A stretch of 64,000 bases of DNA from a candidate division FCPU426 bacterium. Its GTDB lineage: Bacteria; Oederibacteriota; Muellerivitia; Muellerivitales; Muellerivitaceae. Shown here piece after piece: positions 7,959-51,352 of this stretch. A program made the translations under genes and the position numbers. The stretch lies in contig DAIDGV010000024.1 of NCBI GenBank assembly GCA_027452205.1, positions 342,750 to 406,749 of the forward strand. Reading direction: 5' to 3'. Under the pieces are notes generated by a model. It was not told where the DNA came from and did not search any database. It saw only the letters and a list, made by a program, of their open reading frames with translations. The stretch's first letter is position 1; each line of letters opens with the position of its first letter.

Positions 7959-7977
7959 AACCCCAAACCCTTATTTC

Positions 7978-8144
7978 GCCACAGATGCCCCACAAATCCA
8001 TATCAACTTGTAATGATCGTGGGGCTATGCCGATCTCAATAAGACCTTTATGGAAGATCCGCATGCAGGGGATACATAAAACCATAATTCTGAATTCTTA
8101 ATTTTGAATTATGAATTGTTGTGATATCCCCTGCATCTGTGGCT
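7978..8144. repeat. Composite palindromic element, copy 1 (ends GCCACAGATGC)
   Basis: Outer inverted repeat GCCACAGATGC (7978-7988) / GCATCTGTGGC (8133-8143). An inner perfect inverted repeat ATGCAGGGGATA (8063-8074) / TATCCCCTGCAT (8125-8136) encloses a 50-bp AT-rich segment. The left part holds GCCCCAC/GTGGGGC and CCGATCT/AGATC(C)G arms. It shares the long block AATGATCGTGGGGCTAT plus CCGATCTCAAT with the copy at 12572, but the AT-rich segment is in the opposite orientation. It fills the gap between the ABC ATPase and dedA genes and carries no open frame. Confidence 0.8.
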
Positions 8145-8239
8145 AAACCGCCTTTTATTCGGGTTTCCCTTTTCATTAGCCATCCCTAGTGCCGGGATGT
8201 TATTTTGTGAACGCTTTCAATCCACGCAAATGAGGCCCT

Positions 8240-9010: not shown

Positions 9011-11086
9011 ATGTCCACGACTTTTCTCTACCAATGGGCCCGGATCGGCTCCTTTCTTTTCTTTTTCGGGATGACTTCCTTTCTCCAGGCCGCCACTCAA
9101 CAACTTAAAGGCCATATCCCCCTGGAAGTCGCCAGGGCCCCCTTCTTAGGGGCCATGGACACGACCCAAAGTTTGGACCTGTCCATTGGCTTACCCCTTC
9201 GCAACACCGATCAGTTGAACCAGTTGTTGAAAGATCTCTACGACCCGAAGAGCGTCTATTACCGGCATTTCTTGACCCCGGACCAATTCACCGCCCAATT
9301 CGGCCCGTCGCCCTCGGATTACCAAGCAGTTATGGATTTTGCCCAAGCCCATCATTTAGCCGTGACTCGCGTCCAAGCCAACCGGTTATTGGTGGATGTG
9401 CAAGGCTCGGTAGATGACATCCAAAAGACCTTTCACGTTCATCTGAACCGCTATCAAAGAACTGATGGCACCGAATTTCACGCACCGGACCAAGAACCTT
9501 CCGTGGACTTGGACATTCCCATCGGGCACGTGAGCAATTTGGAGGATTTTCAAAGACCCCGGCCCGGCTACGCGACTTCCGGTCTGCGCCGGCAGTTTTC
9601 TTCTTCCTTCAGTCCTTCCATCAACGGGGGGACCAGTCCTTATTCCTCAGGGGATTATTTCGGCACAGACTATCGGAACGCTTATGTGCCCGGTTGTATC
9701 ACTTCCTCTTTTCAAGGCCAAGGACAGGCAGTCGCTCTGGTGGAATTTGACCGTTACAACTCGTCTGATGTCACAAACTATGCCAATGCGGCTACCTTGG
9801 GCTCACCTGCCATTAATAATATTGGAATCGACGGCTTTAGTGCTATCAGTGGCACTCCTGTCATTTCCGGTGACGATGGCGAGATCGTTTTGGATATTGA
9901 GATGGTCATCTCCATGGCGAAGTCCGCTGTCGTGAACGTTTATGAAGATGATCCTCGTGACAGCAACGCCCAAGCGGACGATCTTTTGAACAAAATTGCC
10001 ATCGATAACACAGCCAAGCAGATCAGTTGTTCTTGGACGGGCTTTGGCGACAGCAATACCGCCGGTATCTTGGCGGAATATGTCGCCCAAGGTCAGTCCT
10101 TCTTCCAGGCCGCGGGTGACCTGGGCGCTTATACTTCATCCGACCCCAAAGCTTCGGTTCCAAATCCTATTGACCTTACATCCAACATGACGGTCGTCGG
10201 CGGCACCCAATTGAGCACATCAAACGGACCTACCTATCAATCGGAATCCGTTTGGAACTCTTCACCAGGGGCCACAGCCACGGCTATTCCAACACCTCCT
10301 AATGCTGTTAGTGGTGGTGGTATTTGCACCGGTGTTCTTGCCATACCAACCTATCAAATACCCTTCAATACGAATGGCGCTTCTTCCAGTTGGCGGAACA
10401 TCCCAGATGTGTCAATGGTTGCTATCGGCATCGATATTTATTGGGGTAGTCCCGACACGAATGTCGGCGGCACCAGCGCCGCCGCCCCTCTTTGGGCCGG
10501 ACTCATGGCTTTGATCAATCAGGAAGCCAGCCAATTCACAAAAGGACCGATCGGATTCCTGAACCCTTACCTTTACACTTTGGCCAATAATGGAGGTGTC
10601 TATACCGGTACTGATTTCCATGACGTGCAATCAGGCAACAATAACTACTGGGGTACCCAACCGGTATCCTTCGCTGCTGCCACACCTGGTTACGACTTAG
10701 CCACTGGTTTGGGCAGCCCCAATTGCAACTTGGTCAACAATCTCATCGGCCTGGTCCCCACCAACACCATTACCCCCACGCCCACCAACAGCCCTACCGT
10801 GACCAACACTCCCCTGCCGCCCACCACGACCAGTTATTATGTTTATCCCCAGCCCGCCCATGGCCAAGTCTCTATCGCTTACAACTCCGATTCGGTGCAA
10901 TCCATCAAGATCACCGTTTATAACCTAGTGGGTCAGTTGGTGGGCACCTTCACGGACAACGCGGTGGTCTCCAACCAGAACCGCACCACCCTTTCCCTGA
11001 CCGGCTTCGCCCCGGGCGTTTATTATTTCGTGATGACCGGGTCCGCGGGCTTGACCACCAAAGGCAAATTCTTGGCGGAGCCCTGA
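9011..11086 (+). CDS. Secreted S53 sedolisin-family serine-carboxyl peptidase with C-terminal sorting-like domain
   Basis: 691 residues. A signal-like N-terminus is followed by a pro-kumamolisin activation domain (about 35-200) and the catalytic domain. Catalytic residues fit S53: Glu291 and Asp295 in GEIVLDIE, oxyanion Asp370 in AAGDLGAY, and nucleophile Ser489 in GGTSAAAP. A calcium-loop motif follows (FHDVQSG, then PGYDLATGLGSP). After a Pro/Thr linker the last ~85 residues (YVYPQPAHGQVSIAYN, KITVYNLVGQLV, GFAPGVYYFVMTG) resemble a Por-type secretion tail or FlgD-like Ig domain. Sedolisins are usually acid-active. GAGG precedes the ATG at 9011; an in-frame upstream ATG lacks a ribosome site. 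The stop overlaps the next start (TGATG). Confidence 0.92.
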   Translation: MSTTFLYQWARIGSFLFFFGMTSFLQAATQQLKGHIPLEVARAPFLGAMDTTQSLDLSIGLPLRNTDQLNQLLKDLYDPKSVYYRHFLTPDQFTAQFGPSPSDYQAVMDFAQAHHLAVTRVQANRLLVDVQGSVDDIQKTFHVHLNRYQRTDGTEFHAPDQEPSVDLDIPIGHVSNLEDFQRPRPGYATSGLRRQFSSSFSPSINGGTSPYSSGDYFGTDYRNAYVPGCITSSFQGQGQAVALVEFDRYNSSDVTNYANAATLGSPAINNIGIDGFSAISGTPVISGDDGEIVLDIEMVISMAKSAVVNVYEDDPRDSNAQADDLLNKIAIDNTAKQISCSWTGFGDSNTAGILAEYVAQGQSFFQAAGDLGAYTSSDPKASVPNPIDLTSNMTVVGGTQLSTSNGPTYQSESVWNSSPGATATAIPTPPNAVSGGGICTGVLAIPTYQIPFNTNGASSSWRNIPDVSMVAIGIDIYWGSPDTNVGGTSAAAPLWAGLMALINQEASQFTKGPIGFLNPYLYTLANNGGVYTGTDFHDVQSGNNNYWGTQPVSFAAATPGYDLATGLGSPNCNLVNNLIGLVPTNTITPTPTNSPTVTNTPLPPTTTSYYVYPQPAHGQVSIAYNSDSVQSIKITVYNLVGQLVGTFTDNAVVSNQNRTTLSLTGFAPGVYYFVMTGSAGLTTKGKFLAEP

Positions 11087-24650: not shown

Positions 24651-24678
24651 TTCTAAGGCAAACATCGCGGCAAAATCG

Positions 24679-25182
24679 ATTTAGCCACAGATGCAGGGGA
24701 TACAGGGGATGAGCCCAAATCTATTGAGCCAAAGTATCCTTTTTCCATTCTTTACGAGGAACAACGCGTCTAAATTGCAACTCCGGGTTCCCAAAGTTCA
24801 GCAACATACCGATCGGGAATCCTGTGGCCTTCAAATAATTCAAACATTGAGCGAAATGAATATCCTGTAAAGACTGAACAGCTTTTAGCTCAACGATGAT
24901 TTGATCTTCGACCAAGAGATCCGCCATATATTCGCCTACTACATGATCCTTATATTGAACCTCTATCGGTTTTTGCTGGATTACTTTTAACCCTATTTGT
25001 TTAAGTTCAATGGTTAAAGCGTTTTCATAAACCTTCTCTAAAAATCCGCTGCCTAATGTATTCATGACTGAAAAAGAACTACCGATGATCTTTTCAGTAA
25101 TCTCATTAAGAAGCGGCGTATTCGCTTTTAGGTTCGTGAATGTTGAATCCATCCCCTGTATCCCCTGCATCTGTGGCTAAAT
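24679..25182. mobile_element. 504-bp element: GxxExxY gene inside perfect 33-bp terminal inverted repeats
   Basis: Bases 24679-24711 are the exact reverse complement of 25150-25182 (33/33). Each arm starts ATTTAGCCACAGATGC and continues with two tandem copies of CAGGGGAT. Extending outward, 3 of the next 4 bases also pair. Between the arms there is a single gene, and nearly the whole interior is coding. The same arms bracket a gene-less ~90-bp core at 31722-31875, and shorter versions bound the elements at 7978 and 12572. I see no convincing target-site duplication. No classical transposase is present. Mobility is inferred from the structure and dispersion only. Confidence 0.7.
24721..25152 (-). 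CDS. GxxExxY-family PD-(D/E)xK nuclease-like protein
   Basis: 143 residues. It carries the family-naming motif GFLEKVY (36-42) and a full RecB-like nuclease core: Glu39, Asp78 in YMADLL, Glu88-x-Lys90 in IIVELKAV, and Gln102-x3-Tyr106 in QCLNY. The family (PDDEXK_3 type) is widespread in environmental bacteria and functionally uncharacterised. The ATG at 25150-25152 starts at the innermost base of the right terminal repeat, and an AGGGG inside the repeat gives a Shine-Dalgarno site at nine-base spacing. An upstream ATG within the repeat would add six residues (MQGIQG). The stop lies nine bases inside the left repeat. The gene is more AT-rich than its neighbours. Confidence 0.88.
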   Translation of the reverse strand: MDSTFTNLKANTPLLNEITEKIIGSSFSVMNTLGSGFLEKVYENALTIELKQIGLKVIQQKPIEVQYKDHVVGEYMADLLVEDQIIVELKAVQSLQDIHFAQCLNYLKATGFPIGMLLNFGNPELQFRRVVPRKEWKKDTLAQ

Positions 25183-25210
25183 TGATGTTTTTAAATTTTA
25201 GTTGTGCCGT

Positions 25211-25582
25211 TCAAGCTGATTTCTTCCGCTGCATCGGTCGCTTTTCGATGTAACAAAAAGACCTTGTTTCCCTTTTGCGGGGTGGTTGGGGCTGGTGATG
25301 CTCCACAAAATGCAGGTGGTCCTGCCCCTGGATGGAGACCTCCTCCACTTCCACTTTCAAGCAGGAAAGCCATTGACCCGGCGCGGGCCAGGCCATGTCC
25401 AGCGCCACCTTCACCGGGGAAAGGGCCTTGAAGGTGAGGGTATGGAACGTGGAAATATCCACCGTCCAGCCTTTGCCCTCGACAAAGCGCACCAACTCGG
25501 CCGCGCTCGCGGGCCATTGGGCCCGGTCCATCTTGAAGATACCCACCATGCGGATGAGTTTATTCAGGTCTTTATTGATCAT
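25211..25582 (-). CDS. Small hypothetical protein, possible C-terminal frameshift
   Basis: 123 residues from an ATG with a strong GGAGG seven bases upstream. The first ~90 residues look like a real globular domain (NKLIRMVGIFKMDRAQWPAS, then VRFVEGKGWTVDISTFHTLTF). The end (PPRKRETRSFCYIEKRPMQRKKSA region) looks unnatural. The overlapping frame ending at 25191 instead gives NKVFLLHRKATDAAEEISLN, which reads better as protein. A one-base change near the C/A-rich stretch around 25280-25300 could have switched frames. No family is recognised. It follows radC on the same strand, separated by 22 bases, and may be co-transcribed with it. Confidence 0.6.
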   Translation of the reverse strand: MINKDLNKLIRMVGIFKMDRAQWPASAAELVRFVEGKGWTVDISTFHTLTFKALSPVKVALDMAWPAPGQWLSCLKVEVEEVSIQGQDHLHFVEHHQPQPPRKRETRSFCYIEKRPMQRKKSA

Positions 25583-27058: not shown

Positions 27059-27133
27059 AACCACAGATGAACACGGATGAACGCCGATAAAGCCCAAGCC
27101 TTGATCCGCGTTTATCTGTGTACATCTGTGGTT
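27059..27133. repeat. Imperfect palindromic repeat CCACAGATGAACACGG, downstream of lexA
   Basis: Left arm 27059-27084 and right arm 27108-27133 pair at 23 of 26 positions (AACCACAGATGAACACGG against its complement). The core CCACAGATG is shared with the element ends at 7978, 12572, 24679 and 31722. No open frame. A half copy lies at 14552-14584. Confidence 0.8.
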
Positions 27134-31703: not shown

Positions 31704-31721
31704 TAACGGCGAACAAAAACC

Positions 31722-31875
31722 AATTAGCCACAGATGCAGGGGATCCAGGGGATAAAACCAAGAAATTCTTAAATAGATTTAAGACCATCAAAACAAGATC
31801 GGATTTAGTTGTCTTCATCATTGGTTATTTAGAATTTGACTCAATCCCCTGAATCCCCTGCATCTGTGGCTAAAT
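31722..31875. repeat. Gene-less element with the same terminal repeats as the GxxExxY unit
   Basis: Left arm 31722-31753 and right arm 31844-31875 follow ATTAGCCACAGATGC plus two CAGGGGAT-like units, and pair at all but one or two positions. The arms match those at 24679-25182 almost base for base. The ~90-bp core is AT-rich and has no open frame. It resembles a miniature, non-autonomous derivative. It lies between the MauE-like gene and a convergent TPR gene. Confidence 0.8.
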
Positions 31876-31903
31876 TGATTCAAGTTTTTGTTTTGTCTTG
31901 AGG

Positions 31904-51176: not shown

Positions 51177-51230
51177 TTCTGATCGAGAACTAAGACACGA
51201 TCATGAGAAAATCCTGGAACAATCTTTTGA

Positions 51231-51352
51231 ACCACCAAGACACCAAGGGCACCAAGAAAACCTCATAAAAAGACCAGGATGGGCAGCATTTTTTGAACAA
51301 GATGATTTTGTCGTTCTTAGTGAACTTGGTGTCTTGGTGGTAAATGAGGTTT
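51231..51352. repeat. Palindromic repeat ACCACCAAGACACC between leuD and a methyltransferase gene
   Basis: Left arm 51231-51256 and right arm 51316-51341 pair at 23 of 26 positions. A second short inverted pair AAACCTCAT (51258-51266) / ATGAGGTTT (51344-51352) lies next to each arm. The latter contains GAGG and provides the Shine-Dalgarno site of the downstream gene. I recall this sequence type as a dispersed repeat in many environmental genomes. Confidence 0.8.

Follow-up and report, generated by a model that had tools for sequence, protein, structure and literature searches.

A GxxExxY nuclease-like gene flanked by inverted short-unit arrays: an apparently undescribed nuclease-repeat partnership

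Genes of the large orphan protein family GxxExxY and inverted arrays of 9-10-nt units together form a real and widespread nuclease-repeat partnership that is apparently undescribed. It is exemplified here by an element in a 64,000-nucleotide stretch of DNA from a candidate division FCPU426 bacterium (contig DAIDGV010000024.1; hereafter the window). The reading that we favour, and which is probably correct if only by a little, is that of a minimal selfish element, in which the arrays would serve as the ends of the element and as probable binding sites for the nuclease that is encoded between them.

The original prediction had described perfect terminal inverted repeats around one GxxExxY gene. 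Table 1 shows the layout of this unit, and the repeats were confirmed: the exact cores of the two arms are inverted copies that match at 33/33 positions, and the full arms are 40 nt long, with 95% complementarity and a separation of 438 nt, a pairing for which 100 shuffles give an expectation of 0. The gene, with its stop codon at 24721-24723, is the only one between the arms. It had also been proposed that the right repeat supplies the Shine-Dalgarno site and the first base of the start codon. The AGGGG, 9 nt upstream of the ATG at 25152, does lie within the arm, but the arm includes the whole of this ATG (25152-25150) as well as an alternative upstream ATG at 25170. The same ends were correctly noted to occur without the gene elsewhere in the window, where one clear and one degenerate hairpin carry them. 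The element has terminal inverted repeats, as expected of a DDE-type insertion sequence or MITE, and a profile search of it found no DDE transposase, the only matches being to PDDEXK_3 and GxxExxY. It is situated between fabI and orf123, outside rRNA. An Rfam search gave nothing above the gathering score, and a known RNA element was rejected, as the weak His_leader and rli40 matches fall on or adjoin the fabI terminator hairpin. The minus-strand 123-aa ORF at 25211-25582, between the element and radC, is found at approximately 30% identity in the genomes of seven relatives and had no match in an NCBIfam search.

Table 1. Positions in the window of the GxxExxY element and of gene-less hairpins.
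Feature	Position	Strand	Details
Left arm	24672-24711	+	About three 9-10-nt units (CCACAGATG CAGGGGATA CAGGGGATG); exact 33-nt core 24679-24711
Right arm	25150-25189	-	Inverted copy; exact 33-nt core 25150-25182; contains AGGGG and both candidate gene starts
GxxExxY (TIGR04256/PF13366) PD-(D/E)XK nuclease-like gene	24721-25170	-	Start 25170 or 25152
Gene-less hairpin, arm class of the window element	31717-31880		Arms 37 nt, 89%, 90 nt apart
Degenerate gene-less hairpin, arm class of the window element	7974-8147		15-nt core, 144 nt apart
Gene-less hairpin, related arm class	27059-27133		Arms 34 nt, 85%, 7 nt apart
Gene-less hairpin, CACCAAG arm class (the class flanking the decayed GxxExxY copy L006)	~51230-51342		

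The enclosed protein matches TIGR04256 GxxExxY (E 3.9e-44; 149.7 bits against a cut-off of 35) and PF13366 PDDEXK_3 (E 1.4e-42; 145.2 bits against a cut-off of 22). The full PD-(D/E)xK signature predicted for it is present as described when residues are counted from the 25152 start (E39, D78, E88, K90, Q102 and Y106), and the equivalent positions are conserved. Across 35 diverse homologues, with numbering from 25170, G42, E45, Y48, D84, E94 and Y112 are invariant, and K96 and Q108 are at least 90% conserved. The nearest folds to a confident AlphaFold2 model (pLDDT 86.9) are Cas4 SSO0001 (E 2.2e-4), LHK-Exo (2.9e-4) and lambda exonuclease (8.1e-4), with moderate TM-scores of approximately 0.5. 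The QxxxY motif is known from this same group of enzymes, and the protein, as modelled, resembles a Cas4/lambda-exonuclease-like nuclease, with which its QxxxY motif is consistent; a search by sequence for a solved close homologue found none. Substitution estimates (dN 0.08-0.25; dS above 1.7 or saturated) show that the protein is under strong purifying selection. A phage origin was rejected: 50,697 phage records gave 0 matches, viral contigs gave no confirmed one, and there was no PHROG. Carriage on plasmids was seen in just 8 of 72,556 records.

At least 80 GxxExxY loci were retained from a search of 84,980 species genomes, and they come from many bacterial phyla and from Methanosarcinales. 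Among the matches listed, 68% of 77 loci have a cognate flank score of at least 28, compared with 0.8% of 391 shifted windows, and 58% score at least 34, compared with 0% of shifted windows; for relatives of the host, cognate arms scoring at least 28 were found at 27 of 33 loci. The possibility raised with the original prediction, that homologues never have flanking inverted repeats, is contradicted by these figures, since most homologues across phyla do have them. Detectable arms are missing at approximately 30% of the loci among the matches listed. ORF-based controls had comparable arms in 4 of 214 cases, and these four include one GxxExxY and one TIGR02436 gene. Some GxxExxY copies sit in tight gene neighbourhoods: a Sphingomonas copy between fabD and fabG (L321) and a Bacteroides copy after radA (L318) are packed closely, with little space for arms, and these two are perhaps domesticated.

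Unlike a simple terminal inverted repeat, each arm is built as an array of roughly three units of 9-10 nt (TTTNARCCRCNRAK and so on). The 9-10 periodicity is seen as a match fraction of 0.39/0.375 against 0.28 in shuffled sequence (sd 0.01), and the consensus of arms anchored on RCCRC, a motif that the method itself fixes, reads TTT-N-A-RCCRC-NRA[G/T] followed by two further units. The units point towards the gene in 63 of the 69 elements for which a direction could be called. The single fixed 33-bp end that had been proposed as the terminus stands as an exact match in the window element but not as a general rule, since the ends are unit arrays that differ from element to element. Arm similarity is weakly predicted by protein distance (Mantel r 0.16, and near zero below 50% identity); given this weak correlation, strong coevolution of protein and arm was rejected.

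Within the host genome (2.89 Mb), six GxxExxY loci were found, and their inverted arms are clear at five and degenerate at one (L003); the arms of L005 and L003 were seen only with a more sensitive comparison. Decay has affected two of the six genes, leaving one with an internal stop and the other as a fragment. The arm sequence is wholly different between loci (CACAGAGTA three times, CAGGGGATA, CGGATAAACGCCGATAA, CACCAAG three times, and others). Arm classes and inverted repeats were surveyed in 1,652,276 bases (57% of the genome), where the six classes have 47, 9, 42, 7, 9 and 10 arms, those at genes included, against 0 in the reversed control, and every class has gene-less copies. The core of the window arm occurs 77 times in the host genome at up to 3 mismatches, and the reversed pattern 0 times. 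Most neighbouring arms face each other across 70-226 nt; among divergent arm pairs, seven of eight have a near-constant offset of 65-68 nt. The loops of the hairpins often contain another arm class or a AATTCTGAATT-type repeat that resembles the arms of the host TIGR02436 gene, and hence one class is nested in another. When the inverted repeats in the surveyed bases were ranked by score, a GxxExxY gene lay inside three of the four top pairs with a separation of 250-800 nt. The one TIGR02436 gene present is likewise enclosed, and the remaining pairs are composite gene-less arrays or of other kinds. GxxExxY is the main cargo of inverted pairs in this part of the host genome.

The original prediction had allowed that the arm might be equally frequent in genomes lacking the gene. 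Arms are instead concentrated in genomes that carry it: scored with the pattern CCACAGA-N(2-5)-CACAGA, which covers one flavour of arm, 14 of 20 gene-positive genomes of the phylum have at least 3 arms compared with 1 of 25 gene-negative genomes (p 2.9e-6; 45 genomes), with totals of 515 and 6 arms, respectively. Outside the family of the host the co-occurrence has p 0.002, the related genomes being non-independent. Gene-positive genomes without the pattern belong to two families (f4 and f12) in which several genes have other arms, and as the pattern describes a single flavour they are not clear counter-examples. A relative of the host from another family (G013) is a strongly expanded case, with 273 matches to the CACAGA pattern in 2.6 Mb alongside five GxxExxY and nine TIGR02436 matches.

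At two loci, orthologous intergenic sites in sister genera were found filled, decayed or empty. At the fabI-orf123 site the gene is present in the window genome and in G006 (66.7% protein identity, the G006 copy being broken at a contig end), a single arm is present in G002, and there is nothing in G001, G003, G004, G005 or G007. At an epimerase/rlmI-like site the gene is present in G001, G005 and G007, a deleted remnant is found in G002, and G000, G004 and G006 have 53-74 nt only. The empty orthologous sites carry no arm. Since the three filled epimerase sites come from two genera and have similar left arms, long retention is suggested there, and this element may have been inherited rather than hopping often; the resolution of the GxxExxY gene tree is too low to tell vertical descent from repeated insertion. 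Judged by eye, left arms at this site resemble left arms, and clear concerted evolution between the arms was rejected in favour of such left-left conservation. No target-site duplication was readable at the junctions of the two orthologous sites or of further inspected indels, because the flanks of the relatives are too diverged. An insert of approximately 80 nt with shared GATCTTCCATAA/GGAAGGTCGG-like ends was seen in the arms of one locus each in G006 (L190) and G002 (L200), the former of which may be partly a contig-end artefact. At L224 (G004:C17:362000-381900, ~9362-9927), a small ORF, which putatively encodes an ORF6N-type protein and is possibly another small mobile gene, occupies an intergenic site whose counterpart in G002 is short.

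How such an element might work can be sketched from its parts, a single QxxxY PD-(D/E)XK nuclease gene and the unit arrays on either side of it. The nuclease would recognise an array in steps of about one helical turn, and it would cut or trim arms that have been extruded as hairpins or that are single-stranded at the replication fork. The segment bounded by the arms could then be copied or deleted by host repair or replication, and gene-less hairpins would be mobilised in trans, in the way that RAYTs are believed to act on REPs. The original prediction, of a nuclease paired with palindromic repeats in the manner of RAYT/REP but with another class of enzyme, holds with respect to the pairing, as the arms track the gene and most homologues are armed. 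That the nuclease itself mobilises the repeats is the leading mechanism, and one that we infer.

Alternatively, the palindromes could be BIME-like sequences that are spread by another enzyme, or by replication slippage or recombination, and that occasionally capture a small GxxExxY gene as passive cargo. The majority of arms are indeed gene-less, and the composite arrays with their near-constant offsets suggest array duplication. Such capture is nevertheless improbable, as the contents are non-random (GxxExxY and TIGR02436 recur both in the unbiased census and among the control positives), the unit class differs between the two families, and the arms follow the presence of the gene. There is a small chance, slightly better than that of capture, that the protein is a recombination or maintenance nuclease that does not transpose, in which case cutting or trimming of arms would promote gene conversion between copies and a homing-like spread by repair. 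Lambda exonuclease and Cas4, the nearest folds, are DNA-end-processing and recombination enzymes, and the arms are matched within an element and variable between elements, both of which would suit this role; however, empty sites without an arm offer nothing to home to, and the epimerase-site orthologues show left-left likeness by eye, with no clear arm-to-arm conversion.

The least probable of the readings weighed here is that the arms are not mobile ends at all but operators, or a long-range RNA hairpin, for a host nuclease gene with a role in, for example, defence or repair. It would account for the start codon and likely ribosome site inside the right arm and for the keeping of arms beside intact genes, but it leaves unexplained the many gene-less copies, the nesting and the filled and empty sites. 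With regard to defence, the window protein has no PADLOC match, and its host paralogue weakly matches Cas4-type models and one candidate model and no others.

For the working of the selfish element that we favour, RAYT/REP (REPIN, BIME) is the best analogy, as distinct from family membership, and the likeness in the logic of gene-repeat pairing is well supported. In both, a single enzyme gene lies between two inverted repeats, gene-less copies are dispersed in alternating arrays and follow the presence of the gene, and orthologous genes can remain in place with the inverted arrangement retained (PMC2817692, PMC3116915). In contrast, RAYTs are Y1/HUH transposases, whereas the GxxExxY element has a PD-(D/E)XK nuclease (no Transposase_17 in a profile search); REPs are small hairpins or palindromes, whereas the GxxExxY arms are tandem units that form a hairpin only as a pair; and the GxxExxY element, unlike RAYT/REP, occurs in many phyla and in Methanosarcinales. 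Rpn/YhgA-like proteins (PF04754) are also PD-(D/E)XK proteins, are annotated as transposases and are linked to RecA-independent horizontal transfer (PMC5350276), but PF04754 and GxxExxY are separate Pfam families. Compared with the Cas4/lambda exonuclease/LHK-Exo group, which has the nearest solved folds and the same QxxxY motif, GxxExxY is a stand-alone core of approximately 120 residues and, at most loci, lies between repeat arms of its own. Searches of the open-access literature by family name, unit sequence and topic found no description of GxxExxY-repeat pairing, and the literature found assigns no origin to the CACAGAG/CACCAAG/ACAGGAT-type palindromes that surround GxxExxY in many environmental genomes. 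The link gives both gene and palindrome a testable function and, if the proposed mechanism is true, a PD-(D/E)XK nuclease joins the RAYT transposases among the enzymes that keep repeat families.

TIGR02436 genes outside rRNA (L145-L174, with L159 in the host genome) share the layout of the GxxExxY elements. Among loci in the relatives, 68% of 28 score at least 28, compared with 0 of 97 controls. Their unit class is a different one (GTTTATAAN, GTTACAG and similar): RCCRC is present in 48 of 68 GxxExxY arms and in 0 of 18 TIGR02436 arms, consistent with a separate unit class for each family (p 0.0005). The intervening sequence (IVS) of 23S rRNA holds a TIGR02436-type (S23/four-helix-bundle) ORF between inverted repeats, and resembles the GxxExxY element in its size of approximately 0.4-0.5 kb, its one small ORF, its patchy distribution and its proposed mobility, although the S23 protein is unrelated to GxxExxY and the window unit is intergenic whereas the IVS lies in rRNA (PMC4990558). 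We suggest tentatively, as a possibility that falls short of an even chance, that a single unrecognised class of minimal elements has the GxxExxY and the S23/TIGR02436 units as its two branches. Elements of this class would consist of one gene between inverted arrays of 9-10-nt units, with the 23S rRNA IVS as a special case, and each protein would mobilise its own unit class, gene-less hairpins in trans included, in many bacterial phyla and in Methanosarcinales. The long unexplained intervening sequences would thereby gain a wider context. Apparent gene-less relatives of the TIGR02436 arrays were also seen nested in GxxExxY-type hairpins.
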